Positions 4,388-20,928 of a DNA stretch of 64,000 nt are shown piece after piece. Numbering within the stretch: position 1 is the stretch's first letter; each line of letters opens with the position of its first letter. The stretch covers positions 62,001-126,000 of the forward strand of contig JAJYUT010000003.1 in assembly GCA_021792365.1 (NCBI GenBank). The letters are read 5' to 3'. This stretch comes from Pseudomonadota bacterium (GTDB lineage: Bacteria > Pseudomonadota > Alphaproteobacteria > Dongiales > Dongiaceae). The notes beneath the pieces were generated by a model that was not told the origin of the DNA, searched no databases, and saw only the letters and a program-made list of their open reading frames with translations. Made by a program: the position numbers and the translations under genes.

Positions 4388-6637
4388 CTAGTCCCGTTGC
4401 GCAAGGTTGCCCGACACGACGACCGAAACCTCCGTCGCGCCGAGGCGGGTGGGCTTGACCTGCCCGATGATGGTGGCATGGGCATGGCCGGCAGCGCGCA
4501 ACTCCGAAACGCACTCGGCGGCCGCCTTGGCCGACACGCCGGCAAGCAGGCCGCCGGAGGTCTGCGGATCGAACAGGATCGCCTTGGCCGGCTCGTCGAC
4601 GTCGCCCCGCAGCAGCAACAGGCGCGCGAGGTTCTCTGGGAGCTGCGCCGAGGCCGCGCCAGCCCGTGCTTTCACGCTTATGTCGCGATAGATCGGCATC
4701 GCGCCGAGGTCGAGCTCCGCTTCGGCGCCGCTGGCGGCCAGCATTTGCGCCAGATGGCCCATCAGACCGAGCCCGCTCACATCCGTCATGGCGGTCGCGC
4801 GATGTCGCGCCAGGACCATGGCGGTGCTGCAGTTGGACCGGCGCATTTCCGCGAGGGCATCGGCCACCGCGCCCGATCGGGCCTGTCCGCGCATGGCAGC
4901 GGCAAAGAGAATGCCGGTGCCCAGCGGCCGCGTCAGGATCAGCGCGTCGCCCGCCGCAAGGCCGCCCTTGCGCACCACCCCGTCGGGAGCGACCTCGCCC
5001 GTCACGCTGAGCCCCAGGGCAAGGTCCATCCCTTCGCTCGCGTGGCCGCCCACCAGCGCGACGCCTTCGCGGTCCAGGCATGCGCGCACGCCGGAGAGAA
5101 GCTGGAACAGCGCTTCCTCCATCTTGTCGGGCGGGCCCATGGGAATGACGGCAGTCGCCAACGCGTGGCGCGGCTTTCCGCCCCTCGCGAACACCTTGTT
5201 CAGCGCGTGATTGGCCGCGATGTCTCCGAACACGAACGGATCATCGATGAAGGCGCGGGAGAACTCGATCGTCTGCATCAAGTAGCCGGCTTTCGGCGGC
5301 AGGAAAACCGCCGCGTCGTCCGGCGCGGCCAGCCCAGCGATCACGCCATCGCCGAGCGGCGGCGGAAGCTTGGGCAGCGCCTGCGACAGAGGCATCGGGC
5401 CGATCCTTGCGGCGCAGCCACCGCAGCCCATGCCCCCCTCTTTCGCAAGATCCGGCTGTATCCTGGGCATGCGCGCGCGCATGGCCTCAGTATCCTGGTA
5501 CATCCGCATCCAGCGGCGATCGATCCAGTCCTTCCACCGCCACACCCAGGCGCCCTCGGTCTTGAACGGCCCGCGCGAGGCGATGGCATAGCGCTCCCCG
5601 GTCGAGATCAGCGCGAGGTGCCGCTGTTGCGGTCGCCACGGCCTCAAGACCTCGCCGCGCACGCGCCGCCGCAGATTGCGCGCCAGCGGTGGACCGGCGC
5701 GCACGGCATAGACGCCGGCTTTTTCCCGCGGCGTCTCAATCAGCGTCACGCAATCTCCGGCGCCGAACACGTCCGGGTCGTTCAGAAGCTGAAGCGTCGG
5801 GCCGACGGCGAGGAACCCATCCTTGTCGAGCGACAGGCCGGTCGCGGCGAACCAGGGGGGCGCCGCGGCCCCCGTCGTCACCAGCACGGCATCGGCCGCG
5901 ATGGTCTCGCCGCCCTCCAACGCGATCGCGGCGGGGGTCAGGGCGCGCACCTTCCGATGCTCGTAGAGCGCGATGCCGCGCGCGGCGAGCGCGTGCCGGA
6001 AAGCATCGCGGACCTTGGGATCATGGGTCGCCAGAATCGCGCCTTCGGTCGCCAGGGCAAAGGAGAAGCCGGCTTCGTCCCGATTCTCCGCCCGCGCATC
6101 CGCCAGCAGATGCGAGCGGACGGACAGGATAAGCTCGACGCCACCCGCGCCACCGCCGATCACCGCGATGCGCCGAGGGCCATCCGGCGCGCGGCAGCGC
6201 TCCCGCAAGGCCGCGAACTTGCCGAGGAAGGAGCCGATCGGCTTGACCGCAATGCCGTGCTCGGCCGCGCCCTCGATATGCGCGAGCGCCGGCGTGATGC
6301 CCACGTCGATCGACAGCAGGTCATACGCGATGGGTGGGCGGCCGGCGAGCAGGACGCGTTTCTGCGCCCGGTCCACGCCCACCGCCTCCGCGTGGATCAG
6401 CCGCGTGCCGGAAACCGCCGTCAGGCGCAGCAGATCGATATGGGCCTCCGCCTCGGTATAGAGCCCGGCGATCACGCCGGGAAGCATGCCGGAATAGGGC
6501 GTGTCGAGATCGCGCGTCACCAAAGTCAGGCGGACACCGGGCTCCGGTTTCATCGCGAAGGCCTTGAGGACGTGGACATGGGCGTGACCGCCGCCGAGCA
6601 GCACGATGTCGGTGCGGACCTCTCCCGCGTGCATCAT
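4388..6637 (-). CDS. selD: Bifunctional FAD-dependent oxidoreductase / selenide, water dikinase
   Basis: A fusion protein. The N-terminal half (to about residue 400) is an NDH-2/sulfide:quinone-reductase-like flavoprotein: TDIVLLGGGHAHVHVL, a second dinucleotide motif IAVIGGGAGGVEL, and the C-terminal FAD motif VFGAGDCVTL. The C-terminal 347 residues are selenophosphate synthetase, starting at GGMGCGGCAARIGP, with an ATP-binding region and a typical end (FDPQTSGGLLAGV). SelD makes selenophosphate from selenide and ATP. The fused oxidoreductase is thought to supply reduced selenium. The active-site loop has Arg (AGG codon) where Lys is usual. I chose ATG 6637; an in-frame TTG at 6682 adds 15 residues. 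No selA, selB or selU is in the window. Confidence 0.9.
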   Translation of the reverse strand: MMHAGEVRTDIVLLGGGHAHVHVLKAFAMKPEPGVRLTLVTRDLDTPYSGMLPGVIAGLYTEAEAHIDLLRLTAVSGTRLIHAEAVGVDRAQKRVLLAGRPPIAYDLLSIDVGITPALAHIEGAAEHGIAVKPIGSFLGKFAALRERCRAPDGPRRIAVIGGGAGGVELILSVRSHLLADARAENRDEAGFSFALATEGAILATHDPKVRDAFRHALAARGIALYEHRKVRALTPAAIALEGGETIAADAVLVTTGAAAPPWFAATGLSLDKDGFLAVGPTLQLLNDPDVFGAGDCVTLIETPREKAGVYAVRAGPPLARNLRRRVRGEVLRPWRPQQRHLALISTGERYAIASRGPFKTEGAWVWRWKDWIDRRWMRMYQDTEAMRARMPRIQPDLAKEGGMGCGGCAARIGPMPLSQALPKLPPPLGDGVIAGLAAPDDAAVFLPPKAGYLMQTIEFSRAFIDDPFVFGDIAANHALNKVFARGGKPRHALATAVIPMGPPDKMEEALFQLLSGVRACLDREGVALVGGHASEGMDLALGLSVTGEVAPDGVVRKGGLAAGDALILTRPLGTGILFAAAMRGQARSGAVADALAEMRRSNCSTAMVLARHRATAMTDVSGLGLMGHLAQMLAASGAEAELDLGAMPIYRDISVKARAGAASAQLPENLARLLLLRGDVDEPAKAILFDPQTSGGLLAGVSAKAAAECVSELRAAGHAHATIIGQVKPTRLGATEVSVVVSGNLAQRD

Positions 6638-6689
6638 GAATGCTGCCGAATCCCGCCCGTCATTGGACGGTGATCTCCTCAATCACGAT

Positions 6690-7197: not shown

Positions 7198-8202
7198 TCA
7201 GGAAACCACCTGCGCCGTCACGGCAATGCAATCGCCGGACTTCACCAGGCCGGGAAAATGCCGGCCGGCCAGGATGCCGTCCGTGGCGGTGCGATACTGC
7301 ACCGGCGGCACGCCGGTCCGGTCGGCCGGCCAGACCTGGGCGATGACGTCGCCCTTGCGCAGCGGCTGGCCAAGATCGACGCAAGGCTCGATCAATCCAT
7401 CCTGATCGCTGAAAGTGAAGCAATCGCCGCTCGGCATGTCGAGCATGGTCGACGGCGCCGCCTCCGCCTCGCCGTCCAGGATGCCCGCATGGGCCAGCAG
7501 GTTGCGCACGCCGCGCCTGGCGATCGCGATGGTCATAGCGCTGGTCGTGCCGCCGCCGCCCAGTTCGGTGGAGATGAATATCTTGCCCATCTCTTCCGCT
7601 GCCGTGTCGTACATGCCGACAGCGTCGATCTCGAGCAGCATCATCGAATAGGGCGCATTGAATGCGCGCATGGCGGCGACGCATTTGTCCTCATGCTTCC
7701 GGTCGGGGAGCCTGTGCGCGCAGCAGAACGGCAGGAACTCCAACGTCTTTCCGCCGGAATGGATGTCGAGCACGAAGTCCGCCAGCGGCAACAGCGTACG
7801 CTGGAAGTAGTCCGCGATCTTCTCCGTCACCGTCCCGTCCGGCTTGCCCGGGAAAAGGCGGTTGAGGTTGCCCTTGTCGATGGGCGAGGTGCGCGTTGCG
7901 GCGCGAAAAGCCGGATAGTTCATCGCCGGCACGATGATGACGCGTCCCGACAGCCGAGCCGCATCGATGGACGCCGCGAGGTTCATCAATGCGACCGGGC
8001 CCTCGTATTCGTCACCATGGTTGGCGCCGGTCAGCAGGAGTGTCGGCCCGCTGCCGTTCTTTGCAACTGTGATCGGGATCATGATGGCGCCCCACGCGGA
8101 ATCGTCGCGGCTATAGGGCAGCCGCAGAAAGCCGTGCTGTACGCCGTCGCGCTCGAAATCCACTGTGGCGGAGATGGGGCTTGCCCGCTTCTCCATGCTC
8201 AT
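7198..8202 (-). CDS. doeB: N2-acetyl-L-2,4-diaminobutanoate deacetylase (ectoine degradation)
   Basis: A 334-residue protein of the succinylglutamate desuccinylase/aspartoacylase family. The zinc ligands are visible: GANHGDEYEGP (His62, Glu65) and DIHSGG (His147). Length and overall sequence match DoeB/EutE, which removes acetate from the N-acetyl-diaminobutyrate made by ectoine hydrolase, giving L-2,4-diaminobutyrate. It acts in the cytoplasm. It is the last gene of the leftward ehuB-ehuC-ehuD-ehuA-gntR-doeB operon, 14 bp behind gntR. There are two in-frame ATGs (8202 and 8196); a GGGAG sequence is better spaced for 8196. The assignment rests on both family and gene context. Confidence 0.9.
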   Translation of the reverse strand: MSMEKRASPISATVDFERDGVQHGFLRLPYSRDDSAWGAIMIPITVAKNGSGPTLLLTGANHGDEYEGPVALMNLAASIDAARLSGRVIIVPAMNYPAFRAATRTSPIDKGNLNRLFPGKPDGTVTEKIADYFQRTLLPLADFVLDIHSGGKTLEFLPFCCAHRLPDRKHEDKCVAAMRAFNAPYSMMLLEIDAVGMYDTAAEEMGKIFISTELGGGGTTSAMTIAIARRGVRNLLAHAGILDGEAEAAPSTMLDMPSGDCFTFSDQDGLIEPCVDLGQPLRKGDVIAQVWPADRTGVPPVQYRTATDGILAGRHFPGLVKSGDCIAVTAQVVS

Positions 8203-8216
8203 GCTCCCTGCTTGAT

Positions 8217-8909
8217 CTATTCTTTGCCGTCCGGATAGCGCTTCATGCGCTTGACGCTCATGGAGATGTGGCTGCGACGGATGTGGCCCACCGCCTCCAG
8301 GTCGCCGACTTCCATCGCCTGCAGGATGTCGGCCATCTCGCGCCGGAACACCTCGATCTCGGCTGGCAGGTTAAGGTGCGGCACCGACTTCAGCCAAATT
8401 CGCGTGGTCAAGTAATAGAGCCGTTCGGAAATATCGCGGAGCGGCCCATTGCCGACCATCGCGGTCAGCTCCTGGAAGAAGTCCATGTTGAGCCGCGCAT
8501 AGGCCTTCGCATCCGGCTGCTTCAGCAGCTTGTCGCAGCGCACCAGCAGCGCCCGCACCCGCGCCAGATCGGCCTCGCCGCGCGGGATCGGATCGAGCTT
8601 GCCGATCAGTTCCGCCAGTTCCATGCGCAGGCGAAAAACCTGCGCGAGCGAATCGATGTCGACGTCGGTGACGAAAGTGCCGACACCGTGCCGGCTTTCC
8701 AGCAGCCCCTCGCTTTCCAGGCGCGACAGCACCCGGCGGATCGGCGTGCGGGAGACGTTGAATTCCCGGGCCAGCTCCTCCTCGGCCAGGCGCTCGCCCG
8801 GCTGATATTCGAGCAGGCAAATGCGGTCGCGGATCGTCTTGTAGATCCGCTCGAACCGCTCGCGCGACATGCTAAGCGGCCGCTCAGCACCCTCGTCATA
8901 GGGACTCAT
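8217..8909 (-). CDS. GntR-family transcriptional regulator, FCD type, of the ectoine cluster
   Basis: A 230-residue protein with an N-terminal winged helix (LAEEELAREFNVSRTPIRRV, then SEGLLESRHGVGTFV) and a C-terminal helical FCD-like effector domain. The usual FCD metal ligands look largely lost: the Asp-x-x-x-His position reads NMDFFQEL and the Glu-His position reads EIEVF. Only a late His (RRSHI) remains, so effector binding may be metal-free. ATG at 8909 overlaps the ehuA stop (ATGA), so it is translationally coupled to the transporter. Ectoine operons are classically controlled by the MocR-type regulator EnuR; this protein has no aminotransferase domain and appears to replace it. Probable targets are the TGTATACA palindromes near 12.14 and 12.23 kb. 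Confidence 0.88.
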   Translation of the reverse strand: MSPYDEGAERPLSMSRERFERIYKTIRDRICLLEYQPGERLAEEELAREFNVSRTPIRRVLSRLESEGLLESRHGVGTFVTDVDIDSLAQVFRLRMELAELIGKLDPIPRGEADLARVRALLVRCDKLLKQPDAKAYARLNMDFFQELTAMVGNGPLRDISERLYYLTTRIWLKSVPHLNLPAEIEVFRREMADILQAMEVGDLEAVGHIRRSHISMSVKRMKRYPDGKE

Positions 8910-9694
8910 ACCGCCTCCAGAACGGCGCGCAGGAACTGCTGGGTCCGTTCGTTCTTCGGGGCGGTGAACAGCTCCCTGGGCTCCCCCTGCTCGCAGATCT
9001 TGCCCTGGTAGAAGAAGCAGACTCGGTCGGCGAATTCCTTCGCGAAACCCATCTGATGGGTGACCATCAGCATGGTCAAGTCGTGTTCGCTCCCGAGCTT
9101 GCGGATGACCTGCAGCACCTCGCCGCACAGCTCCGGATCGAGGGCGGACGTCACCTCGTCGAACAGCATGATCTTGGGCCGCATGGCAAGGGCCCGGGCG
9201 ATGGCGACGCGCTGCTGCTGCCCACCAGACAATTGTGCCGGATAGTGGCCCTTCTTCTCGCCGAGGCCGACCAGGTTGAGAAGGTCGGCGGCGCGCTCTT
9301 CCGCCTCTCGGCGCGGCAAGCCAAGGACGGTCATCGGCGCCTCGATGCAGTTGCCGAGCGCCGTCATGTGCGGGAACAGGTTGAAATGCTGGAACACCAT
9401 GCCGATCTTCGAGCGCACGCGGCGCAGATGCTTGGCTTCGGCCGGCACCAGCTTGCCGTTCTTCTGCATATGGGTCATCGGTTCGCCATCGACCCAGATC
9501 ACGCCGCCGTCGATGCGCTCCAGGGTCATCAGCATGCGCAGCACGGTCGTCTTGCCCGAGCCGGACGGGCCGATGATCGCCACCTTCTCGCCGCGCCCGA
9601 TGTCCAGGTTGAGACTGTCGAGCACGGTCAGGGAGCCGTAGCGCTTGGTCACGCCCTCGAACCGCACCATCGGGCGATCAACGGTTTCGGTCAT
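8906..9694 (-). CDS. ehuA: Ectoine/hydroxyectoine ABC transporter ATP-binding protein
   Basis: A 262-residue polar-amino-acid-type ABC ATPase. Walker A is GPSGSGKTT, the signature is LSGGQQQR, Walker B is IMLFDEVTSALDP, and the switch His is in MVTHQMGFA. It energises uptake through EhuC/EhuD. ATG at 9694 is preceded by AAGGAG at good spacing; longer in-frame starts only read into the upstream gene. It overlaps ehuD (ATGA) and the downstream gntR (ATGA). Generic glutamine-type ATPases look alike, so the substrate assignment comes from being embedded between ectoine genes. Confidence 0.88.
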   Translation of the reverse strand: MTETVDRPMVRFEGVTKRYGSLTVLDSLNLDIGRGEKVAIIGPSGSGKTTVLRMLMTLERIDGGVIWVDGEPMTHMQKNGKLVPAEAKHLRRVRSKIGMVFQHFNLFPHMTALGNCIEAPMTVLGLPRREAEERAADLLNLVGLGEKKGHYPAQLSGGQQQRVAIARALAMRPKIMLFDEVTSALDPELCGEVLQVIRKLGSEHDLTMLMVTHQMGFAKEFADRVCFFYQGKICEQGEPRELFTAPKNERTQQFLRAVLEAV

Positions 9695-10350
9695 CGCACG
9701 CTCCTTCGATTGAGGCGACGCTCCAGCCAACGGATGGCAACCGCCGACACTAGGCTCAGGACCAGGAAGGCTACGCCGACGATGGTCATCGGCTCGGTGT
9801 AGCGGAAATTCTCCGAACCCAGGTTCTTGGCGGTCTGCACCAGCTCCAGCACCGCGATCGCCGACAGCAGCGGCGTATCCTTGAACAACGCCACCAGGTA
9901 GTTGCCGAGGGCCGGCACGATCGGCGGGATCGCCTGCGGCAGGATGATGTTCTTGAAGGTGTGCCAACTGCTAACATTGAGCGCCGTGCACGCCTCCCAC
10001 TGACCGCGCGGCACCGCCTCCAGGCCGGCGCGGTAGACCTCGGAGCAATAGCAGCCGTAATGGATGCTGAGCGCGATGATACCCGCGGTGAAGGCATCCA
10101 GCACGATGCCGAAGCGCGGCAGCACGAAGAACAGGAAGAAGATCTGGATCAGCAGCGGCGTCGAGCGGACGAGCTCGACGAAGGCCGAGGCCAGCCAGCC
10201 GACGATGGGGCCGCTCATCCGCAGGACGGCCAGCACCAGGCCGAGCACCAGCGCGATGAAGAAGCTGAGGAACGTCGCTTCGATCGTCACGATGGCAGCT
10301 CTAGCCAGGACCGGCAGGATCTCGATGGTGTATTCCCAGTTCCAGATCAT
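9691..10350 (-). CDS. ehuD: Ectoine/hydroxyectoine ABC transporter permease
   Basis: A 219-residue inner-membrane permease of the HisMQ/polar-amino-acid family. It has about five hydrophobic segments and the EAA loop EAVPRGQWEACTALNVSSWH followed by ILPQAIPPIVPALGN. The ATG at 10350 overlaps the stop of ehuC (ATGA), and its own stop overlaps the ehuA start. It pairs with EhuC as a heterodimer. Which permease is called ehuC or ehuD here follows gene order by analogy with the Sinorhizobium ehu operon. Confidence 0.85.
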   Translation of the reverse strand: MIWNWEYTIEILPVLARAAIVTIEATFLSFFIALVLGLVLAVLRMSGPIVGWLASAFVELVRSTPLLIQIFFLFFVLPRFGIVLDAFTAGIIALSIHYGCYCSEVYRAGLEAVPRGQWEACTALNVSSWHTFKNIILPQAIPPIVPALGNYLVALFKDTPLLSAIAVLELVQTAKNLGSENFRYTEPMTIVGVAFLVLSLVSAVAIRWLERRLNRRSVR

Positions 10351-11078
10351 CAGCGCCCTCGTCCCCGTACCATGCCGCGCAGCGACTTGCGCTCGAGCCA
10401 GCGCATGCCGATCGTGATGGTGAGCGACAGCACGAGATACATCAGCAGCGCCAGCGTGAAGATCGGGATCGTCTGCATCGAGAAGTCGTTCAGCGTCCTC
10501 GCCTTGAAGGTCAAGTCGCTCATCGTGATGAGGGAGACCAACGCGGTCGATTTCAGCAGCTCGATGAAAAGGTTGCCCCAGGGCGGGATCATGGCGACGA
10601 AGGCTTGCGGCAGGATGATGCGCCGCAGCGCCTGCCAGCGCGTCATGTTGAGCGCCGTTGTCGCCTCCCACTGGCCACGCTGCACCCCCTGGATCCCGCC
10701 ACGCACGACCTCCGCCCCGTAGGCGCCGACATTCAGCCCCAGGCCGAGCACCGCAACCGTGAACGGCTCCATGAAGATGCCGAAATCCGGCAGCACGAAA
10801 AACAGCCAGAACAGCTGCACCAGGGCAGATGTGCCGCGGAAGAACTCGACATACGTGACGGCGAGCCAGCGCAAAGGTGCCGGACCATAGAGCCGGCATA
10901 GAGCGGCGGCCGTCGCCGTGATCACGGCAAGACCGCAGCCTACCACAGCGATTCGAACGGTCAGCCACGCGCCTTCCAGCAGCCCGGGCATGAAAATGGC
11001 GTTGTCGCCGCTGGCCGCCAGAACGGCGATCGCAATCAGTGCCGTTGCCAGCATTGCGGCAAGCGAAGGTATGCCCAT
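10350..11078 (-). CDS. ehuC: Ectoine/hydroxyectoine ABC transporter permease
   Basis: A 242-residue HisMQ-family permease with an N-terminal membrane segment and the EAA loop IQGVQRGQWEATTALNMTRW, followed by IILPQAFVAMIPPWGN. It shares layout with the next permease gene, which it overlaps by ATGA. The two form the membrane channel of the ectoine ABC importer. An 80-bp gap separates it from ehuB upstream, which is common for operons in which the binding protein is made in excess. No obvious hairpin was seen in that gap. Confidence 0.85.
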   Translation of the reverse strand: MGIPSLAAMLATALIAIAVLAASGDNAIFMPGLLEGAWLTVRIAVVGCGLAVITATAAALCRLYGPAPLRWLAVTYVEFFRGTSALVQLFWLFFVLPDFGIFMEPFTVAVLGLGLNVGAYGAEVVRGGIQGVQRGQWEATTALNMTRWQALRRIILPQAFVAMIPPWGNLFIELLKSTALVSLITMSDLTFKARTLNDFSMQTIPIFTLALLMYLVLSLTITIGMRWLERKSLRGMVRGRGR

Positions 11079-11157
11079 GGCGACTCCCCCGGCCTATGGG
11101 TGGGACGAACCCGTCGCGCCGAAGCGGGGCGGACCTGCGGCCCGCCCCGGGTTCGGT

Positions 11158-12036
11158 CTACTCACCCTTGCAGAGCTGTTCGGTCGTCTTGTTCGGCAGG
11201 TAGTCCTTGCCGAAACCAATCGGCGTCACCAGCGCGATATGTTCCGGCGAGCCGAGGAACTTCTTCAATTCGGCGTTGAAGGCCTCGAGAAGATCCGTGT
11301 CGTCCTTGCGGAAGCCGAAGCCGCCATGACCCTTCACCGACTTGCCGGCCACCTCGCCGAACGGCGTGGTGGATTCCACGCCTTCGCCCTTCTTCGCCAT
11401 GTCTGCGATCGAGAGCGCGGTCAAAGATGCGCCGTCGGCGCGGCCGGACTGGACCGCCGCGAGCAGGCTCGACTGGTCGGGCAGCACCACCAGCTGCGAT
11501 TCGGGCACGCCGGCATCCTTCGCGTAGCCGACCTCGACCGCGCCCGACATGACCGCGAGCTTCAGGTCCTTGTTGCCGGCGAAGGTGGAGAAGTCCTTCA
11601 CGCCCTTCGGATTGCCCGCCGCCACCAGCATCGCCTGGCCGATGCCGTAGGACGGCTCGGAGAAATTGATCTCTGCGCAGCGCTTGGGATTGATGAACAT
11701 GCCCGCCGCGATGATATCGAAGCGGCCGGCCTTGAGCCCCGGGATGAGCGAGCCGAATTCCGTCAGCACGCCATCGACCTGGGGGATGCCGATCTTCGCC
11801 AGCACCGCCTTGGCCACTTCCGGCGCCTCGCCGGTCAGCTTGCCGTCCGGGGTCGCGTAGCCGAATGGGGCCTCGTTGGCGAAGCCTACGCGGATGAAGC
11901 CCTGCTCCTTCGCGCGCTCCAGGGTGGTCTCCGCGAATGCCAAGCGGGTGCCCGCGCCGAGCGCCGCAATGCCCGCGCCCAGTCCGATGGCGGATTGCAA
12001 CAGGCCGCGCCGCGTGACCCTCAACACGTGATTCAT
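11158..12036 (-). CDS. ehuB: Ectoine/hydroxyectoine ABC transporter substrate-binding protein
   Basis: A 292-residue periplasmic binding protein of the family-3 (polar amino acid) type. The N-terminus has a twin-arginine signal (TRRGLLQSAIGLGAG) ending near AFAET. Family landmarks are IRVGFANEAPFGY, LKAGRFDIIAAGMFI and GKSVKGHGGFGFRKDD. Length and sequence style match EhuB, the high-affinity ectoine/5-hydroxyectoine binder. ATG at 12036 has a strong GAGGAGG site. It is the first gene of the leftward operon, driven by the promoter at about 12.15 kb. Confidence 0.87.
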   Translation of the reverse strand: MNHVLRVTRRGLLQSAIGLGAGIAALGAGTRLAFAETTLERAKEQGFIRVGFANEAPFGYATPDGKLTGEAPEVAKAVLAKIGIPQVDGVLTEFGSLIPGLKAGRFDIIAAGMFINPKRCAEINFSEPSYGIGQAMLVAAGNPKGVKDFSTFAGNKDLKLAVMSGAVEVGYAKDAGVPESQLVVLPDQSSLLAAVQSGRADGASLTALSIADMAKKGEGVESTTPFGEVAGKSVKGHGGFGFRKDDTDLLEAFNAELKKFLGSPEHIALVTPIGFGKDYLPNKTTEQLCKGE

Positions 12037-12133
12037 GCTTGCCTCCTCTGTTGTCTGGTCGCGTGTTTTTGCTGTATCGGCCCGGGGAGAGTTTCGACCA
12101 GTGCCCCCGCCCGGAAAACCCCTTCTAAGATAG

Positions 12134-12143
12134 TTGTATACAT
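12134..12143. promoter_or_regulatory. Candidate GntR operator 1 (TTGTATACAT)
   Basis: The palindromic core TGTATACA lies at 12135-12142. It overlaps the -10 hexamer of the likely ehuB promoter, so a bound repressor would block that promoter. GTATAC cores occur in sites of several FCD-type GntR regulators (for example UxuR/ExuR). The same 9-mer TGTATACAT recurs 95 bp to the right. Confidence 0.6.
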
Positions 12144-12163
12144 CTTATCTTTCCTTGGCGCAA
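12135..12163 (-). promoter_or_regulatory. Candidate sigma-70 promoter for the ehuB operon
   Basis: On the minus strand, TTGCGC (12163-12158) is followed after exactly 17 bp by TATACA (12140-12135). This is a reasonable -35/-10 pair. Transcription would begin near 12128, leaving a leader of about 90 nt before the ehuB ATG at 12036. The -10 is inside operator 1. Confidence 0.5.
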
Positions 12164-12228
12164 GTTCCGCGCTAGTCTTTGCTCCTGTAAGTGGATTCCT
12201 CTCCGGAGCGATCCAACGCCTCCCGTCG

Positions 12229-12238
12229 ATGTATACAT
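12229..12238. promoter_or_regulatory. Candidate GntR operator 2 (ATGTATACAT)
   Basis: A perfect 10-bp palindrome ending 8 bp before the eutB ATG at 12247. No Shine-Dalgarno sequence precedes that ATG. TATACA within the site could serve as a -10, which would make the eutB transcript start at or next to its start codon (nearly leaderless); however, no good -35 is seen 16-18 bp upstream. The two operator centres are 95 bp apart, close to nine helical turns. Confidence 0.6.
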
Positions 12239-12246
12239 TTTAACCC

Positions 12247-13257
12247 ATGACCTTGCCTGCCTCCGCGCCGACCCTTGCCGACATCCGCGCAGCGCGCGAC
12301 GCGATCGGCGGACTCGTACTTCGCACGCCCTCGATCGTGGCGCGGGAGCTGAGCGCCCTGGCTGGCCAGGACGTGTTACTGAAGCTCGAAACCCTGCAGC
12401 CGATTGGCGCCTTCAAGCTGCGCGGCGCGGCCAATGCGATCAGCCGACTCAGTGACAAACAGAAGCGGCATGGAATCGGCTGCTGCTCCACGGGCAATCA
12501 CGGGCGCGCCATCGCCTACGCCGCGGCACGCGCCGGCATCCGCGCCACGATTTGCCTGTCGGCACTGGTGCCCGAAGCCAAGGTGCGCGCGATCCGCGAT
12601 CTTGGCGCGGAGGTTCGCCGCATCGGCAACAGCCAGGATGACGCGCAGGCGGAGATCGACCGGCTCGCGCGCAGCGATGGGCTCACCGACATCCCGCCTT
12701 TCGACCATCCGCACGTGATCGCGGGACAAGGCACGATCGCGCTCGAACTGCTGGAGGACCGGCCGGACCTTGCCGCCATCGTCGTGCCACTGTCCGGCGG
12801 GGGCCTCATCAGCGGCATCGCGATCGCGGCCAAGGCATTAAGGCCGGAGATCAGGATCATCGGCGTATCGATGGAGAACGGCGCGGCGATGCATGAGAGC
12901 CTGGCTGCCGGGCGGCCTGTCGAGGTGACGGAAGTTCCTTCTCTTGCCGACTCACTCGGCGGCGGAATCGGCCTCGGCAACCAATGGACTTTTCCGATCT
13001 GCCGCGCGCTCGTTGACCAGACGATCCTGGTCAGCGAAGAGGAAATCTATCGCGGCATTCAGGCCTTGATGGGAGACCAGAAGCTGGTCACCGAAGGCGC
13101 GGCCGCCGTCGGCCCGGCCGCCTTGATCGCCGGCAAGCTCAAGCTCGACGGACCGTCGGCCATGATCATCAGCGGCCACAATGTCGATCCGGACCAGTTC
13201 CTCGCCATCGCAAGCGGTCAGCCCGTCAAGATCGGCGATCAGACAATCAGGGGGTGA
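12247..13257 (+). CDS. eutB: Hydroxyectoine utilization dehydratase-like protein EutB
   Basis: A 336-residue fold-type II PLP enzyme of the threonine/serine dehydratase family. The Schiff-base lysine lies in GAFKLRGA (Lys57), the substrate loop is STGNHGRA, and the phosphate-binding Gly loop is LSGGGLISG. With EutA and EutC, EutB is implicated in converting 5-hydroxyectoine to ectoine. It is the first gene of the rightward operon, and its stop is 1 bp from the eutC start. The EutB assignment, rather than a generic threonine dehydratase, comes from the position between ehuB and eutC-doeA. Confidence 0.88.
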   Translation: MTLPASAPTLADIRAARDAIGGLVLRTPSIVARELSALAGQDVLLKLETLQPIGAFKLRGAANAISRLSDKQKRHGIGCCSTGNHGRAIAYAAARAGIRATICLSALVPEAKVRAIRDLGAEVRRIGNSQDDAQAEIDRLARSDGLTDIPPFDHPHVIAGQGTIALELLEDRPDLAAIVVPLSGGGLISGIAIAAKALRPEIRIIGVSMENGAAMHESLAAGRPVEVTEVPSLADSLGGGIGLGNQWTFPICRALVDQTILVSEEEIYRGIQALMGDQKLVTEGAAAVGPAALIAGKLKLDGPSAMIISGHNVDPDQFLAIASGQPVKIGDQTIRG

Positions 13258-13258
13258 G

Positions 13259-14248
13259 ATGCGGGACATCTTCGTATTGACCGAGCGCGACCTGCGCGGC
13301 TGCGTGCATATCGACCGCGCCGCGATTGATATCGTCGAGCAGGCATTCCGCGCGCTGGCGAGCGGCAAAGTCGTCATGCCGCCGATCCTTTCGATGGAGA
13401 TTCCGGACGCCCATGGCGAGGTCGACGTGAAGACCGCCTATATTCCCGGCTTCGACGGCTTCGCCATCAAGGTCAGCCCGGGCTTCTTCGACAATCCCAA
13501 GATCGGCCTCCCCAGCCTCAACGGCCTGATGATCCTGTTCTCCGCCAGGACCGGGCTGGTCGACGCGCTGCTGCTGGACAATGGCTATCTCACCGACGTG
13601 CGCACCGCCGCCGCCGGCGCGGTGGCCGCACGCCATCTGGCGCCGCGCGAGGTGCGCGTGGCCGGCGTGATGGGCACCGGCGTGCAGGCGCGGCTGCAAA
13701 TCCAGGCGGCCCACCTGGTGCGGCCTTTCTCCAAGGTCCTGGTGTGGGGCCGCGACGCGGGCAAGGCGGCTGCTTGCGCGCGCGACATCGCGGCGGCGAT
13801 CAAGGTGGAAGCCCAGGCGATCGGCGACCCGGCGGCGCTGGTGCGCAAGAGCCAGCTTGTCGTCACGACGACTCCCGCGCGCGAGCCGATCCTGAACGCC
13901 GCATGGCTGCATCCAGGCCTGCACATCACGGCCATGGGCTCCGACCAGGCAGGAAAGAACGAAATCGATCCGGCGGCGATCGCCGCCGCCGATCTCTTCG
14001 TCTGCGACCGCGTCACCCAGAGCGCGAAGCTGGGCGAGCTGCGCTCGGCACGGGAAGCGGGGCGCTTCGTGAAGGCCGATCCGTCGGAGCTTGGCGAGGT
14101 GATCGCCGGCGTTAAGCCAGGCCGCCGGTCGCAAGAGGACATTACCATCTGCGATCTGACCGGCACGGGCGCACAGGACACCGCGATCGCCACCTATGCC
14201 TTGGCTGCGGCGCGCAAGGCCAGCGGCGGCACCATCATTCAGGCCTGA
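13259..14248 (+). CDS. eutC: Ectoine utilization protein EutC (ornithine cyclodeaminase/mu-crystallin family)
   Basis: A 329-residue protein of the ornithine cyclodeaminase/mu-crystallin family. The NAD(P)-binding Rossmann motif is VAGVMGTGVQARLQ (about residues 133-146), and the N-terminal dimer/substrate region contains VDVKTAYIPGFDGFAIKVS. EutC works with EutB in hydroxyectoine conversion. The start is ATG 13259, 1 bp after the eutB stop. It is followed by doeA after 13 bp. A longer in-frame start only reads into eutB. The partner eutA (aspartate/glutamate-racemase-like) is not present here. Confidence 0.88.
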   Translation: MRDIFVLTERDLRGCVHIDRAAIDIVEQAFRALASGKVVMPPILSMEIPDAHGEVDVKTAYIPGFDGFAIKVSPGFFDNPKIGLPSLNGLMILFSARTGLVDALLLDNGYLTDVRTAAAGAVAARHLAPREVRVAGVMGTGVQARLQIQAAHLVRPFSKVLVWGRDAGKAAACARDIAAAIKVEAQAIGDPAALVRKSQLVVTTTPAREPILNAAWLHPGLHITAMGSDQAGKNEIDPAAIAAADLFVCDRVTQSAKLGELRSAREAGRFVKADPSELGEVIAGVKPGRRSQEDITICDLTGTGAQDTAIATYALAAARKASGGTIIQA

Positions 14249-14261
14249 AGGAGGAGAACAC

Positions 14262-15446
14262 ATGGCCGTCTACGAGAAGCCCTTCGACAAGGCCGAATAT
14301 GCCCGGCGCGTCGCCGCCACCAAGCGGCGCATGCAGGACGCGGGCCTCGACCTCATCATCTGCCAGGATCCGGCCAACATGTGCTGGCTGACCGGCTTCA
14401 ACGGTTGGTCCTTCTATGTGCCGCAATGCGTGCTGGTGCATGTGGAGGAGGAATGGCCGCTGTGGTTCGGCCGTGCCCAGGATGCCAAATGCGCGCAGGT
14501 GACCACCGATCTGCCGGACCGGAACATCGTGCCGTTCTCCGAACGGCTGGTGCAGCACAAGATCGAGCATCCCTATGACGAGCTGGCCGACCTCATCAAG
14601 TCGCGCGGCTGGGACAAGGCGCGCATCGGGGTCGAGATGGATGCGCACTACTACACGGCGCGCTGCCACGCGCATCTGGTGAAGGGCCTGCCCAACGCGA
14701 CATTCGCCAACAACGGCGATCTGGTTAACTGGGCGCGGCTGGTGAAGTCGCCGGCGGAGCTGAAGTTGATGCGCGAGGCGGGGCAGATCTGCACCAAGGC
14801 CATGAATGCCGCGATCGCGAAGATGAGGCCCGGCGTGCCGCAGAACCACGTGATCGCGGACATCTATCACGCGCAGACCATGGGCGCGAACGGCTTCGGC
14901 GGCGATTATGCCGCGATCTGCCCGCTGATGCCGGTGGGCGAAGGGACCAGCACGCCGCACCTCACCTGGTCGGATGCACCGCTGCCGTCCAACGCGCTGA
15001 CCATGATCGAGATCGCGGGATCGCGCCGCGGCTATCACGCGCCGCTGACGCGCACGATTCACCTCGGCAAGCCGCCGGCCGGCATTCAGGATGTGGCCAA
15101 GGCAGTCGTAGAGGGCGTCGATGCGGGTCTCGCCACCGCCCGGCCCGGCAATACCGCCGAGCAGGTCGAAGCGGCTTGGCAGGCCGTGCTGCGCAACAAC
15201 GGCCTGAAGAAGGAGAGCCGGGTCGGCTACTCCGTCGGCCTGTCCTATCCGCCGGACTGGGGCGAGCGCACCGTCAGCCTGCGCCCAGGCGACACCACCG
15301 TGTTGCAGGCCGGCATGTGCTTCCATATCCAGGCGGGCGTCTGGCTGCAGGAATGGGGTGTTGCAATTTCCGAATCCTTCGTCGTCACCGAGAAGGGCGG
15401 GGAGCGCTTCTGCGATGTCGCGCGCGAGCTGATCGTGATCGACTGA
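14262..15446 (+). CDS. doeA: Ectoine hydrolase (M24 pita-bread fold)
   Basis: A 394-residue creatinase/aminopeptidase-P-fold protein. It opens the pyrimidine ring of ectoine to N-acetyl-diaminobutyrate. The N-terminal domain contains DPANMCWLTGFNGWSFY; the catalytic domain contains TMIEIAGSRRGYHAPLTRTI. The two Asp metal ligands of classical M24 peptidases are replaced here (EIAG... and ...YHAPLTRT), as in the metal-free creatinase. Glu250 in MIEIAG is therefore the candidate catalytic acid or nucleophile. The C-terminal GYSVGLSYPPDWGE is a DoeA-type signature. A strong GGAGGAG site precedes ATG 14262. The last codons overlap doeX (TGATG). Confidence 0.92.
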   Translation: MAVYEKPFDKAEYARRVAATKRRMQDAGLDLIICQDPANMCWLTGFNGWSFYVPQCVLVHVEEEWPLWFGRAQDAKCAQVTTDLPDRNIVPFSERLVQHKIEHPYDELADLIKSRGWDKARIGVEMDAHYYTARCHAHLVKGLPNATFANNGDLVNWARLVKSPAELKLMREAGQICTKAMNAAIAKMRPGVPQNHVIADIYHAQTMGANGFGGDYAAICPLMPVGEGTSTPHLTWSDAPLPSNALTMIEIAGSRRGYHAPLTRTIHLGKPPAGIQDVAKAVVEGVDAGLATARPGNTAEQVEAAWQAVLRNNGLKKESRVGYSVGLSYPPDWGERTVSLRPGDTTVLQAGMCFHIQAGVWLQEWGVAISESFVVTEKGGERFCDVARELIVID

Positions 15447-15940
15447 TGAAGAACGGCGGCCTCAGGCTGGATGAGCGTGACCTCAGGATTCTCACGATCC
15501 TGCAGCGGGAAGGCCGCATCACGAAAACCGAGTTGGCGGAGCGGGTGAATCTCTCGCCGACCCCATGCTGGAGCCGGTTGAAGCGGCTGGAGAAGATCGG
15601 CCTAATCGAAGGCTATCGCGCCAAGATCGCCCTCAAGCGCTTCGGCCTTACCATGGTGTTCATGGAAGCCGAGCTGGAGAGTCACCGCGCTTCGGATTTC
15701 GCGCGCTTCGAAGCGGAGATGAAGCAGGTCCCAGAGATCACCGGCTGCTGGTCGGTCGGCGGCGGGATTGACTATCTGATCCAGGTCATGGTGAAGGATG
15801 TCGATACCTATCAGCGCCTCGTCGACCGGCTGCTCGATAGCGGCATCGGCCTCAAGCGCTACTATACCTATGTCGTGACGAAAGCGGTCAAGGAGGACAG
15901 CCCGCCGCCGCTGGAGCAGCTGCATCAGGAAGCGCTCTAG
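15446..15940 (+). CDS. doeX: Lrp/AsnC-family regulator of ectoine catabolism (DoeX-type)
   Basis: A 164-residue Lrp/AsnC protein. The N-terminal helix-turn-helix includes RITKTELAERVNLSPTPCWS and KRLEKIGLIEGY; the C-terminal RAM ligand domain includes PEITGCWSVGGGIDYLIQV. DoeX/AsnC proteins accompany doeA-doeB and respond to pathway intermediates. ATG 15446 overlaps the doeA stop. Its 3' end overlaps the convergent soxG by 4 bp. Together with the FCD-type GntR the island therefore encodes two regulators. Confidence 0.9.
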   Translation: MKNGGLRLDERDLRILTILQREGRITKTELAERVNLSPTPCWSRLKRLEKIGLIEGYRAKIALKRFGLTMVFMEAELESHRASDFARFEAEMKQVPEITGCWSVGGGIDYLIQVMVKDVDTYQRLVDRLLDSGIGLKRYYTYVVTKAVKEDSPPPLEQLHQEAL

Positions 15941-16461
15941 GCCGCCGCCTCCGCTAGCAGTTCCCAGATCGAGCGGGCGAAGCTGCGCGGCGCCAGGACA
16001 TCGATTCCGTCCGCGCGCCGCCACAGCACAACGCCGACGCGATGGATCGGCGTCAACGCGATGTCGTCTTCGGCGAAACGATGCGGCCTTAAGTCGATCG
16101 CGACAAAGCGGCTCAGCAGCGGAACGGCGCTGTCCTCGCTGACGTGGATGATCGTGCGGGCATGCGAGAGATCGAGGGTGGCCCCGATCTCGGCGCCGAG
16201 CTTTGGATGATCGCTCACGCGCCCCTCCTCCGCCACCAGCCACAAACGCTGCGGATGAACGCGCAGCAGCCCCGCCGTCGCACCGCGCGCAGCTTTGCCC
16301 GGCCGCGGCGCCTCCGGCAGGCCGCACCGGGTGGCCAGGCCCCTTGCCATCTCCGCATAGCGGTCCGGCCAGGCGTGGTACTGCAGCAGCACCGCGCAAG
16401 CGCGATGCGAAAACCCTGCGACAGGCTTGTTCTGCGAGACCGGCGAGATGCGATCAGCCAT
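15937..16461 (-). CDS. soxG: Sarcosine oxidase gamma subunit
   Basis: A 174-residue protein with the weakly conserved gamma-subunit pattern: a mid-section DLSHARTIIHVSEDSAVPLL, followed by FAEDDIALTPIHRVGVVLWR and the C-terminal SFARSIWELL. It is the smallest structural partner of the SoxB/SoxA complex in the cytoplasm. It overlaps soxA by 8 bp, and its end converges with doeX. Identification depends mainly on position after soxA and on these short conserved blocks. Confidence 0.85.
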   Translation of the reverse strand: MADRISPVSQNKPVAGFSHRACAVLLQYHAWPDRYAEMARGLATRCGLPEAPRPGKAARGATAGLLRVHPQRLWLVAEEGRVSDHPKLGAEIGATLDLSHARTIIHVSEDSAVPLLSRFVAIDLRPHRFAEDDIALTPIHRVGVVLWRRADGIDVLAPRSFARSIWELLAEAAA

Positions 16462-19399
16462 GGAGGCGCTTCCCTTCGGGATCGAGGAAGTGCGGTGCCA
16501 CGACCTTCACCAGCGTCCTGCGCCCGCGGATTGGATCGTCCGCCAGCAAGGTGCGCCCTTCCCAATCGGCGAGGCCGCCTTTGACAAAACCGAGGCCGAT
16601 CCACTGGCCGAGCGACGGACTCTCGGTTACGGAGGTGACCCAGCCGAGCCCGTGGCCGCTCTCGTCACCCGCCGCACACAGGATCGATCCGCCCTTGAAG
16701 GTCTCGCCGGTCGTGACAGGCATCAGGCCGACGATCTGTGCCCTGTCCTTGCGCTGGAGGTCGGGGCGCATGCGCAGCGCGCTGCCGATGAAGGGCTTCT
16801 TGGTCGAAGCCAGGCGGCCGAGCCCGAGATCGTCCAGGGTCGCGCGACCATCGAGCTCCGGCCCGCCCACGTGGCCCTTCTCGACGCGGAGCGCACCCAG
16901 GGCCTCCAATCCGTACGTGCCGCCACCGCGCGATTTCGCGCCTTCCAGAAGCACGCGCCATAACGCTTGCCCGTAATCCGCCGGCACATAGATCTCGTAG
17001 GCTAACTCCCCGGAGAAGCTGATGCGCGCGATGCGGCAATGAACGCCGTCGAACGATCCCTCCCGCACACCCATGAAGGAAAACGCCTCGTTGGTGAAGT
17101 CCACGTCCTTCACGAGCGCCTGCAGCAGGTCGCGTGCCAACGGACCGGCGACCGAAGCGCCGGCCCATTGATCGGTGACGGAGGTCACGGCGACGCGCAG
17201 GTCCGGCCAGCGCGTCTCCAGCAATTCTTCCAGCCACGCCATCACCTTGCCGGCATTGGCGGTGGTGGTCGTCATGAAATACTCATGCTCGCCGATGCGC
17301 CACGACGTGCCGTCATCCATCACGATGCCGTCGTCGCGCAGCATGACGCCATAGCGCGCCCTGCCGACCGTCAGCGACTTGAAGGCGTTCACGTAGACGC
17401 GATCGAGCAGCTCGCCAGCATCAGGCCCCTGCACCGCGATCTTGCCCAAGGTCGAGACATCGCAGATGCCGACCGCTTCGCGCACGAGGCGCATCTCGCG
17501 CAGATAGGATTCGTCGACAGTCTCTTCACCTTGCGGATAGAACCAGGGGCGCAGCCACAATCCCGTTTCCAGCATGCGCGCGCCCTGCGCGACTAGCGCG
17601 TCATGCATCGGCGATCGGCGAGTCGGCAGCAAATGCTGGTCCCGCTCCGCGCCCGCCAGCGCGCCGATCGACACCGGCACGAAGGGCGGACGGAAGGTCG
17701 TGGTGCCGATGGCGTCGAGGGGCTTGGCGCGCGCCTCGGCGATCACGGCCAGCGCGTTGACAGCGGAGGTGCGGCCCTGGTCCGTCGCCATGCCGAGCGT
17801 GGTGTAGCGCTTCAGAAGCTCCGGCGCGTCATAGCCTTCGGCGCAGGCCTGGCGCACGTCGTCGAGCGTCACGTCGTTCTGCAGATCGACAAAGGCCTTG
17901 CCCTTGATGCCGCCGAAGACCCAGGGGCGGATGGGCGCCTCCCATCCACCTGGACCGGGAAACTCCTCATCCGGCGCCCTGCGTCCGAGCGCCCGCGCCG
18001 CTTCCGCGCCCGCCGCCCGACCGGAGCGCGCGCAGTCTTCCGAGCGCCAGGTTCCGGCAGCCGCCCCCGCGCAGCGGATCGGCTCGCCCGTCGCGCCCGG
18101 CAGGAAAGCGGCAAGCGTCTCGTTCCAGATCGGTTTCACGCCGCGCTGGCTCAAGAGGTGCTGCGTCGGCGACCAACCACCCGACATGCCGACAGCGTCG
18201 CATTGTATCGTCTCGACCCCACCCCCGTCCGCCGTGCCGATCTCGACAGCGCGCGCGCAGCGGCCGATCGTCCGCAGAGGCACGCACGCCAGACGCAATT
18301 CTACGCCAGCCTCTTTGGACTTGTGCAGAAGCGATGCCGGAAGATTTTCACGCGCATCGATCAAGGTGGTCGCGATCCCGGCGCGCGCCAGATCGTGCGC
18401 GGCTGCATAGGCGGAATCGTTGTTGGTCGCGATGAGCACACGCCTGCCCGCCGCCACGGCCCACCGGTTCGCATAGGCGCGCAACGCCGAGGCCAGCATC
18501 ACGCCCGGCCGATCATTGTTTCCGAAGACCAGCGGCCGCTCGAGCGCGCCGGCAGCGATCACGATGCGCTTGGCGCGCACGACCCAGAAGCGCTCGCGCG
18601 CCGAAGCCCCGGGCTGCAGCCGCTCGACCAGACCGGCAACCCCGTTGTCGTATAGGCCGAATGCCGTGGTGTGGCCGAGGATGCGCACGTTGGGTGCCGC
18701 GCGGAGGCTGCGCTCACGCGCGGACAGCCAGTCCCGCGCATCTGTGTCCTCGATCGGTTGACTCTCGTGCAGCAGAGCGCCGCCCAGCAGGAAGTCGCGC
18801 TCGGCCAGGAAGACATCCAGGCCGGCTTCCGCCGCGACCCGCGCCGCCTCGATTCCGGCAGGACCTGCACCGATCACAAGTACGTCGCAGAAGGCTTCGC
18901 GGCTCTCATAGTGATCGGGGTCCGGCTCGCGCGAGGCGACGCCCAGCCCGGCGGCGCGCCGGATGAAATGCTCGTAGAACAGCCAGCTCTTGGGGCGCTT
19001 TCCCGGCCCCATGAAGGTCTTGTAGTAGAAGCCGGCGCTGAACAGCCTGGCGAAGAGCTGGTTGATTGCACCCAGATCGAAACGCAGGCTCGGCCAGCAG
19101 TGCTGGCTGTAGGCGTCGAGCCCGTCCACCAGCTCCTCGGTCGAAGCGAGGGTATTCGGAGTCGTATGCGCGCCCTTGCCGACCGTCACCAGGGCCGAGG
19201 CTTCCTCGACTCCCGCGCCCATGATTCCTCGCGGGCGGTGATATTTGAAGCTCCGCGCGACCAAGCGTTGCCCACTGGCCAGCAAAGCAGACGCCAGGGT
19301 ATCGCCGGTGAAGCCCCGCAGCATCCGCCCATCGAATGAGAAGCTGAGAGGCTTGCCGCGGTCGATCGCGCCGCCGCTCTTGAGTCGAAAGCCGGTCAT
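16454..19399 (-). CDS. soxA: Sarcosine oxidase alpha subunit
   Basis: A 981-residue protein. The N-terminal part has the SoxA opening GFTGDTLASALLASG and a pyridine-nucleotide domain (VLVIGAGPAGIEAARVAAEAG); the last 380 residues are a GcvT-like tetrahydrofolate-binding domain (GICDVSTLGKIAVQGPDAGE). The complex oxidises sarcosine to glycine and H2O2, and transfers the methyl carbon to THF. ATG 19399 overlaps the soxD stop (ATGA); a longer in-frame extension to 19492 reads only into soxD. Order on the minus strand is soxB-soxD-soxA-soxG, the standard operon. Confidence 0.93.
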   Translation of the reverse strand: MTGFRLKSGGAIDRGKPLSFSFDGRMLRGFTGDTLASALLASGQRLVARSFKYHRPRGIMGAGVEEASALVTVGKGAHTTPNTLASTEELVDGLDAYSQHCWPSLRFDLGAINQLFARLFSAGFYYKTFMGPGKRPKSWLFYEHFIRRAAGLGVASREPDPDHYESREAFCDVLVIGAGPAGIEAARVAAEAGLDVFLAERDFLLGGALLHESQPIEDTDARDWLSARERSLRAAPNVRILGHTTAFGLYDNGVAGLVERLQPGASARERFWVVRAKRIVIAAGALERPLVFGNNDRPGVMLASALRAYANRWAVAAGRRVLIATNNDSAYAAAHDLARAGIATTLIDARENLPASLLHKSKEAGVELRLACVPLRTIGRCARAVEIGTADGGGVETIQCDAVGMSGGWSPTQHLLSQRGVKPIWNETLAAFLPGATGEPIRCAGAAAGTWRSEDCARSGRAAGAEAARALGRRAPDEEFPGPGGWEAPIRPWVFGGIKGKAFVDLQNDVTLDDVRQACAEGYDAPELLKRYTTLGMATDQGRTSAVNALAVIAEARAKPLDAIGTTTFRPPFVPVSIGALAGAERDQHLLPTRRSPMHDALVAQGARMLETGLWLRPWFYPQGEETVDESYLREMRLVREAVGICDVSTLGKIAVQGPDAGELLDRVYVNAFKSLTVGRARYGVMLRDDGIVMDDGTSWRIGEHEYFMTTTTANAGKVMAWLEELLETRWPDLRVAVTSVTDQWAGASVAGPLARDLLQALVKDVDFTNEAFSFMGVREGSFDGVHCRIARISFSGELAYEIYVPADYGQALWRVLLEGAKSRGGGTYGLEALGALRVEKGHVGGPELDGRATLDDLGLGRLASTKKPFIGSALRMRPDLQRKDRAQIVGLMPVTTGETFKGGSILCAAGDESGHGLGWVTSVTESPSLGQWIGLGFVKGGLADWEGRTLLADDPIRGRRTLVKVVAPHFLDPEGKRLHG

Positions 19400-19671
19400 T
19401 TTATGAGCTCGGAAAGAACGGCGCGAGACGGCTCGACGCGCGTGATTGCGTGAGTCACGGTATCGCGTTCCACGATCAGCCACAGGCGGCAACCATCGCT
19501 GTGCTGCCAGCGCTCGCGATGCGGTCCTTTCGGATTGGACCGCACATAGACCGCCTCGAACCAGGCCTCTGTCGGTGCATCCAGCGCCGGGTAGGTCACG
19601 GTCGCATCGCCACCATAGGTGAATTCGCTATGGTCGCGTTCGCCGCAGAAGGGACAATTGATGCGCAGCAT
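19396..19671 (-). CDS. soxD: Sarcosine oxidase delta subunit
   Basis: A 91-residue zinc-binding subunit. Candidate zinc ligands are Cys6 and Cys9 (NCPFCGERD), His57 and Cys61 (WQHSDGCRLW). The sequence FTYGGDATVTYP and the ending match SoxD of heterotetrameric sarcosine oxidases. Its ATG directly follows the soxB stop with no gap. Confidence 0.92.
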   Translation of the reverse strand: MLRINCPFCGERDHSEFTYGGDATVTYPALDAPTEAWFEAVYVRSNPKGPHRERWQHSDGCRLWLIVERDTVTHAITRVEPSRAVLSELIK

Positions 19672-20928
19672 TCAGTGCAGCCTGGGCGTGGGGCCGGAGC
19701 CGGCCTCGTCGATGGTCGCACCGCGCGCGAAGCGGTCGAGCGAGAACGGCACCGAGAGCGGATCCGGCTGATCGCGCGCCATCAGGTGCGCAAAGCACCA
19801 GCCCGAGGCCGGCGTCGCCTTGAACCCGCCATAGCACCAGCCGCCATTGAGATAGAGACCGTCGACCGGCGTCTTCGAGATGATGTGCGAGCCGTCCATG
19901 GTCATGTCCATCACGCCCGCCCAATGCCGCAGCAGGCGCACGCGCCCGAGACACGGCATCAGTGAGACCGCGAGGGCGGCGACGTCGCGCACCACCGGCA
20001 GGTTCCCGCGCTGCGCGTAGGAATTGTACATATCGAGGTCGCCGCCGAAGACCATGCCGCCCTTGTCGGACTGGCTGATGTAGAAGTGGCCGTGCCCGCC
20101 GAAGCCGATCACGTAATCGAGCAGCGGCTTCAATGGCTCGGAAACGAAGGCCTGCAGCAGGTGGCTCTCGATCGGCAGGCACAGTCCCGCCATCTCACCC
20201 AGGCGCGAGGTATGACCGGCGACCGCGATCCCCGTCTTCGCCGCCATGATCCGGCCGCGGCTGGTCTCGACGCCGGCGATGCGCCCGCCTTCGCGCACGA
20301 AGCCGGTCACTTCGCAATTCTGGATGATGTCGACGCCAAGCTCCGACGCGGCGCGGGCATAGCCCCACACCACGGCATCGTGGCGCGCCGTGCCCGCGGT
20401 CGGCTGCATCAGACCGCCCCAGATCGGAAAGCGCGCACCCGGACTGTAATCGAGATGCGGCACCAGTTCCTGCATCGCCGCGCGATCCAGCAGTCGCGCC
20501 GCGATCCCGTGGCGGCGCATGATGTTGCCGCGCCGCGCTGCCGAATCCAGCGCATCGGGGGAATGCAGCAACAGGATCTGCCCGCGCGGAGAGAACATCA
20601 CGTTAAAGTTCAGCTCGTGTGAAAGGGTGTTCCAGAGCCTGAGAGAGAAATCATAGAACTCGGTCGCGCCCGGCAGCATGTAGTTGGAGCGTACGATCGT
20701 GGTGTTGCGCCCGGCATTGCCGGAGCCGATATAGCCCTTCTCCAGCACGGCCACGTCCCGGATGCCGAATTCCTTGGCGAGGTAGTAGGCCGTCGCCAGC
20801 CCGTGTCCGCCGCCGCCGACAATGATCACCTGGTAGCGCTCTTTCGGCGCAGGATCGCGCCAGGCACGCGACCAAGGCTGGCCGGTGACGGCATGCTTCA
20901 GGAGAGCGAGCGCGGAATAGCGCGTCAT
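19672..20928 (-). CDS. soxB: Sarcosine oxidase beta subunit
   Basis: A 418-residue FAD-dependent amine oxidase (DAO family). The ADP-binding fold is VIIVGGGGHGLATAYYLA (about residues 34-51), then VLEKGYIGSGNAGRNTTIVRSNY, typical of SoxB. The C-terminal FAD loop is LYLNGGWCYGGFKATPASGW. It carries the sarcosine oxidation site, and in known enzymes also a covalent FMN. It is the first gene of the sox operon and is divergent from the aldehyde dehydrogenase gene across 176 bp. Confidence 0.93.
   Translation of the reverse strand: MTRYSALALLKHAVTGQPWSRAWRDPAPKERYQVIIVGGGGHGLATAYYLAKEFGIRDVAVLEKGYIGSGNAGRNTTIVRSNYMLPGATEFYDFSLRLWNTLSHELNFNVMFSPRGQILLLHSPDALDSAARRGNIMRRHGIAARLLDRAAMQELVPHLDYSPGARFPIWGGLMQPTAGTARHDAVVWGYARAASELGVDIIQNCEVTGFVREGGRIAGVETSRGRIMAAKTGIAVAGHTSRLGEMAGLCLPIESHLLQAFVSEPLKPLLDYVIGFGGHGHFYISQSDKGGMVFGGDLDMYNSYAQRGNLPVVRDVAALAVSLMPCLGRVRLLRHWAGVMDMTMDGSHIISKTPVDGLYLNGGWCYGGFKATPASGWCFAHLMARDQPDPLSVPFSLDRFARGATIDEAGSGPTPRLH

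Follow-up and report, generated by a model that had tools for sequence, protein, structure and literature searches.

Why should the same short palindrome occur twice, exactly 95 bp apart, between two divergent operons, and which protein would bind it? The question is raised by an ectoine gene cluster in a window of 64,000 nucleotides (the whole stretch of DNA analysed, whose numbering is used below). The host genome measures 5.43 Mb, and in the ectoine cluster its closest relative is Dongia deserti, whose regulator is 93% identical. To the left lie ehuBCDA, the gene for a GntR protein of the FCD type and eutE; to the right lie eutB, eutC, eutD and an Lrp gene. The features of the region are as follows.

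7198..8202, minus strand: eutE/doeB deacetylase (TIGR02994)
8217..8909, minus strand: P0001, a GntR regulator of the FCD group, VanR type by its model, predicted binder of both operators (Pfam GntR and FCD)
8906..9694, minus strand: ehuA (ATPase), by position and tblastn against relatives
9691..10350, minus strand: ehuD (permease), by position and tblastn against relatives
10350..11078, minus strand: ehuC (TIGR03004)
11158..12036, minus strand: ehuB, ectoine-binding protein, first gene of the left operon (TIGR02995, 299 bits)
12132..12145, no strand: predicted operator A, AGTTGTATACATCT, on the ehuB side, with core TGTATACA at 12135-12142
12135..12163, minus strand: proposed ehuB promoter, TTGCGC-17-TATACA, with its -35 inside the loop and its -10 (12140-12135) within operator A
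12143..12229, no strand: proposed loop DNA between the operator cores, 95 bp centre to centre or 9.05 turns
12227..12240, no strand: predicted operator B, CGATGTATACATTT, on the eutB side just before the eutB ATG, with its core at 12230-12237
12247..13257, plus strand: eutB, first gene of the right operon (TIGR02991, NF005680)
13259..14248, plus strand: eutC (NF006141 above cut-off; TIGR02992 just below cut-off)
14262..15446, plus strand: eutD/doeA-like M24 ectoine hydrolase (TIGR02993, 473 bits, below the cut-off of 613)
15446..15940, plus strand: Lrp/AsnC regulator of the DoeX type (Pfam AsnC_trans_reg)

The palindrome TGTATACAT is found at 12135-12143 and again at 12230-12238. A preliminary description of this DNA had reported two copies with centres close to nine helical turns apart, and both the coordinates and the spacing are exact. 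Its wording that the copies flank a 210-bp region was loose. Both are present, one 99 bp from the ehuB start, the other with its octamer beginning 17 bp from the eutB start.

The octamer TGTATACA occurs twice in the window against an expectation of 0.09, and no shuffle contained two copies. Genome-wide the bare octamer has 9 copies, compared with 6 for its reversed control, and is not enriched. Counting octamers alone therefore proves little, and it is the pairing and the context that carry information. The longer 14-mer WGWTGTRYACAWCW has a single exact match in the genome, which is the left site, so that no regulon beyond the ectoine cluster is indicated by exact 14-mers. Scored with the weight matrix described below, operator A reaches 21.1 of a maximum 21.4 bits and operator B 17.0 bits.

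Whether the pairing matters can be asked of related loci. Relatives of the 230-residue GntR protein were gathered by a scan of GTDB contigs and by order-level searches, since class-wide samples of EhuB and GntR were too sparse. The TGTRYACA sites of the loci collected up to that point supplied a 14-bp weight matrix, in which spacing played no part, and the matrix was run on 122 loci with distinct regulators. Left out were thirteen loci whose regulator is distant or that lack a matching cluster, and six on truncated contigs. The remaining 103 all have the FCD-GntR gene together with ectoine genes, and their upstream DNA is intact; in 97 of them two adjacent sites (WGWTGTRYACAWCW) lie within 150 bp of each other. 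Thus the same intergenic region in related genomes, to which the preliminary description had looked for refutation, keeps the pair together with this regulator. Background sites above the matrix threshold number 0.03 per kb, which makes chance pairs negligible.

The pair also goes missing with the regulator. Six ehuB-like loci that were fetched by EhuB and have no such GntR gene contain no comparable site upstream of ehuB; the best scores 6.6 bits, and most real sites score 15-21 bits. The pair is likewise absent from the loci of FCD GntR proteins of 38-46% identity. Five of the exceptions among the 103 loci have a single strong site each (L119, L134, L137, L141 and L172). In two of these, L137 and L141, a degenerate CGTAYACA at 75 bp is the only candidate for a second site found among the single-site loci. 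In the sixth, L066, the two sites are separated by 297 bp (28.3 turns).

The distance between the sites is quantised. Across 105 adjacent pairs the spacings are 42, 62-65, 73-75, 83-87, 93-97, 103-106 and 125-126 bp, plus one of 138 bp, and every zone between these bands is empty. The bands correspond to 4, 6, 7, 8, 9, 10 and 12 turns of the helix rather than to one constant spacing. In a scan that leaves the period free between 6 and 20 bp, the maximum falls at 10.55-10.60 bp and the offset is 0.0-0.2 bp. With regulators collapsed at 95, 90, 80 and 70% identity (n = 69, 62, 54 and 30), R is 0.81, 0.82, 0.83 and 0.86, and none of 20,000 jittered nulls matched the observed value at any level of redundancy. 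Pairs with exact cores alone give R of 0.79-0.81. The nominal Rayleigh p of about 1e-16 (n = 54) or about 2e-10 (n = 30) overstates the independence of loci that share ancestry; the redundancy-filtered R and the count of changes on a tree are safer measures. On the regulator tree the turn class changed at least 15 times, in phase each time, and the exact spacing changed 44 times. Within Mesorhizobium, regulators 97-98% identical go with spacings of either 94-97 bp or 86 bp, and the alignment gap is 10 bases. The phase is not strict, as the spread within a band is 2-3 bp either way; 64 of 65 non-redundant combinations of cluster and spacing fall within 2.6 bp of a multiple of 10.5, the worst being 3.0 bp off.

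In Paraburkholderia three or four operators occur per locus (L121:8234-8440, L123:6441-6641 and L131:6422-6632). The gaps in these arrays are 62-65, 87-95 and 42 bp (about 6, 8-9 and 4 turns), and the remaining gap in L131 is the sole value of 138 bp (about 13 turns). Such arrays suggest an assembly on several operators.

One rival explanation is that the two operators act separately, each shutting off its own promoter without contact between them, with the 95-bp spacing incidental. Every site does lie at or beside a promoter or start codon, and this is the mode to which Suvorova 2015 (PMC4494728) assigns most double-site divergons of the FadR subfamily. Independent operators, however, would be expected to lie further apart in longer intergenic regions and to show no 10.5-bp period in their spacing. 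What is seen instead is a correlation of -0.26, hence no growth, and a period of 10.55 bp with R of about 0.83. In the same loci neither the site-to-start distances nor the intergenic length show a period (R of 0.09-0.12), so only the distance from site to site is phased. This explanation is accordingly unlikely. That about 100 related loci vary the spacing only by whole turns of the helix is strong evidence for a repressor that loops the DNA and turns off both gene sets at once.

The protein that would bind the sites is probably P0001. Its assignment follows from linkage and from the type of motif. The preliminary description had placed an FCD-type GntR gene in the left operon, and Pfam bears this out (PF00392, GntR winged helix, 6e-22; PF07729, FCD, 1e-12). 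In an AlphaFold2 model of the monomer, with a pLDDT of 89, the winged helix is followed from residue 85 by six C-terminal helices, not seven. By this model, P0001 is an FCD GntR of the VanR type, defined by its six-helix C-terminal domain. The nearest solved folds include AlkR, PmiR, Atu1419 and McbR. Residues S53, R54, T55, P56 and R58 are invariant in 38 relatives and are equivalent to DNA contacts of Atu1419 (SRTP.R, with Arg45 in that protein). The site of metal-binding FCD regulators, an Asn or Asp with three His, appears incomplete in P0001. Asn141 and His214 are invariant, and the other two presumed His positions, judged by eye, hold Phe145 and a residue other than His. With the metal site apparently degenerate, the P0001 clade may bind its inducer without zinc.

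The following mechanism is proposed. Operators A and B would be bound by the repressor encoded in the left operon. One dimer would sit on each palindrome, and a dimer of dimers would bridge the two, so that the DNA between them forms a short loop. This would require both operators on one face of the helix, and hence 6, 7, 8, 9, 10 or 12 turns would be tolerated and intermediate lengths would not. Each operator would lie across or next to the start region of one of the divergent promoters, and the loop would shut down ehu uptake and eut breakdown together. Release would come from a metabolite derived from ectoine, perhaps alpha-ADABA or DABA, as for EnuR. It had been suggested at the outset that a dimeric repressor could loop the DNA. 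The same-phase spacing across relatives supports the loop. A single dimer cannot hold two palindromes, and a tetramer or two interacting dimers would be needed, as in Atu1419.

Operator A had been said to overlap the -10 of a good minus-strand promoter. The overlap stands for the proposed TATACA, and the word good does not; the promoter is weak by the E. coli consensus, and a strict sigma-70 scan of the region reported no promoter. Among the ehuB-side operators of loci L040-L179 there are two geometries. TTG(C) lies 21 bp upstream of the octamer, as here, in 34 of 81 sites, and TTGAC about 27 bp upstream in 27 of 81. From these two fixed offsets of a -35-like TTG it follows that the operator lies on or beside the -10 and that the -35 falls within the proposed loop. 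On the eutB side, as first described, 8 bp separate the end of the second palindrome copy from the eutB ATG (12247), and no Shine-Dalgarno sequence can be seen in that stretch. If the TATACA at 12232-12237 served as a -10, the eutB mRNA would be leaderless.

With operator A over the -10 and the -35 within the loop, and operator B 8 bp before eutB, the arrangement is best explained by a short loop that represses both operons jointly. That a VanR-type FCD GntR, acting as a dimer of dimers, represses both operons through a short, phase-locked loop is given a probability of about 0.84. The sign of regulation could in principle be the opposite, the same protein looping the same operators as an activator or dual regulator, and the comparative data prove phase rather than sign. 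Against this, the sites lie over or next to -10 regions and start codons at either end, and a repressor bound at such positions obstructs polymerase; Atu1419, too, is a repressor (PMC7797058). An activating or dual role is thus very unlikely.

Lrp proteins wrap DNA, and the phase could instead be set by such an architectural protein, for example one of the Lrp/AsnC family (DoeX), wrapping the DNA between the sites. An Lrp gene is present in the window and in many of the loci; AsnC is an activator of the ectoine genes in Ruegeria, and in Halomonas the ectoine regulatory region is a target of DoeX binding (PMC5924519). Yet the phase is kept in loci with no Lrp gene nearby (L043, L044 and most of Mesorhizobium), an ehu cluster that has Lrp without this GntR (L057) has no sites, and the periodic elements are themselves palindromes of the FCD type. 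An architectural protein is therefore a very unlikely source of the phase.

Least credible of all is ownership of the sites by the MocR-type ectoine regulator EnuR/EhuR, which controls most known ectoine clusters (PMC5924519) and has a relative above the NCBIfam cut-off elsewhere in this genome, since its consensus ATTGTnnnnnnACAAT has a different spacing (PMC8739950), has no match with up to 3 mismatches in 10673-12777, and belongs to a protein that no GntR locus encodes nearby, the only locus to do so being the control L057, which is without sites. The EnuR/EhuR-like MocR gene of this genome (G000:C1:220301-221695, L036) scores 487 bits against the cut-off of 480, and no ehu or eut genes were detected within several kb on either side of it.

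The closest described system to the P0001 loop is Atu1419 of Agrobacterium fabrum (PDB 6za3 and 6z74). It is a tetramer in which each of two dimers binds ATGTATACAT, and in a divergent promoter with two palindromes at a distance of 190 bp it forms a loop (PMC7797058). The two systems share a VanR-type FCD fold, as far as the P0001 model goes, an ATGTATACAT operator, a pair of palindromes at the -10 regions of a divergent region and, if the proposal for P0001 is right, looping. Operator B contains, at 12229-12238, a 10-mer identical to the one bound by Atu1419 (PMC7797058). The differences are several. The Atu1419 loop, seen by electron microscopy, spans 190 bp, whereas spacings at ectoine loci are 42-126 bp, and Atu1419 governs hydroxycinnamate degradation rather than ectoine genes. 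The two proteins are only about 22% identical, and Atu1419 has a complete zinc site, while in P0001 only Asn141 and His214 are recognisable. The sections of PMC7797058 consulted report no phasing across species.

EnuR, EutR and EhuR resemble P0001 in controlling ehu and eut ectoine genes from operators that overlap the promoter. They differ in being of the MocR/GabR type, with a PLP domain like that of aminotransferases and the operator ATTGTnnnnnnACAAT. In E. coli, LacI and GalR bridge two operators in helical register across promoter DNA, and in gal two promoters are shut. These belong to other protein families, and their periodicity comes from engineered spacings rather than, as here, from natural variation. 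The double-site divergons of the FadR subfamily also have paired sites for GntR-family proteins in divergent regions; in some the distance between sites is near constant and is read as cooperative, and that survey mentions no ectoine regulon, nor does its section on double sites report a helical period (Suvorova 2015, PMC4494728).

Looping by phased operators is thus already known from Lac, Gal and Atu1419, and what is new is unusually clear evolutionary evidence for it. The dependence of repressor loops on helical phase is known mainly from engineered promoters. Here the rule holds in natural variation across many species as well, direct evidence from evolution that looping bears on fitness. 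Neither a published FCD regulator of ectoine genes nor a spacing quantised in turns across species was found in the literature, in which subscription journals were thinly covered. Probably this ectoine system, present in Alphaproteobacteria and Paraburkholderia, is a previously undescribed one; its VanR-type FCD repressor would shut uptake and catabolism by a phase-locked loop. The shortest loop would be of 6 turns (single gaps of 4 turns occur in multi-site arrays), and its length would drift only by whole turns, leaving a natural record of selection on helical phase in about 100 orthologous promoters. In a published set, enuR is present in 456 of 539 ectoine clusters (PMC5924519); the FCD protein is a candidate regulator for ectoine consumers without EnuR. 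The loci also form a ready natural set of loops, from 4 to 12 turns, for measuring DNA looping by GntR proteins of the FCD type.

Two further observations concern the neighbours of the cluster. At 16454-20928 a pair of genes resembling the sarcosine oxidase alpha subunit and a DAO-type oxidase adjoins it, and comparable pairs adjoin ectoine loci of Mesorhizobium and Sinorhizobium; a link to the breakdown of ectoine or betaine is possible. On the minus strand at 4388-6682 there is an open reading frame of 764 amino acids which, by eye, joins an NAD(P)/FAD oxidoreductase to a domain like selenophosphate synthase.
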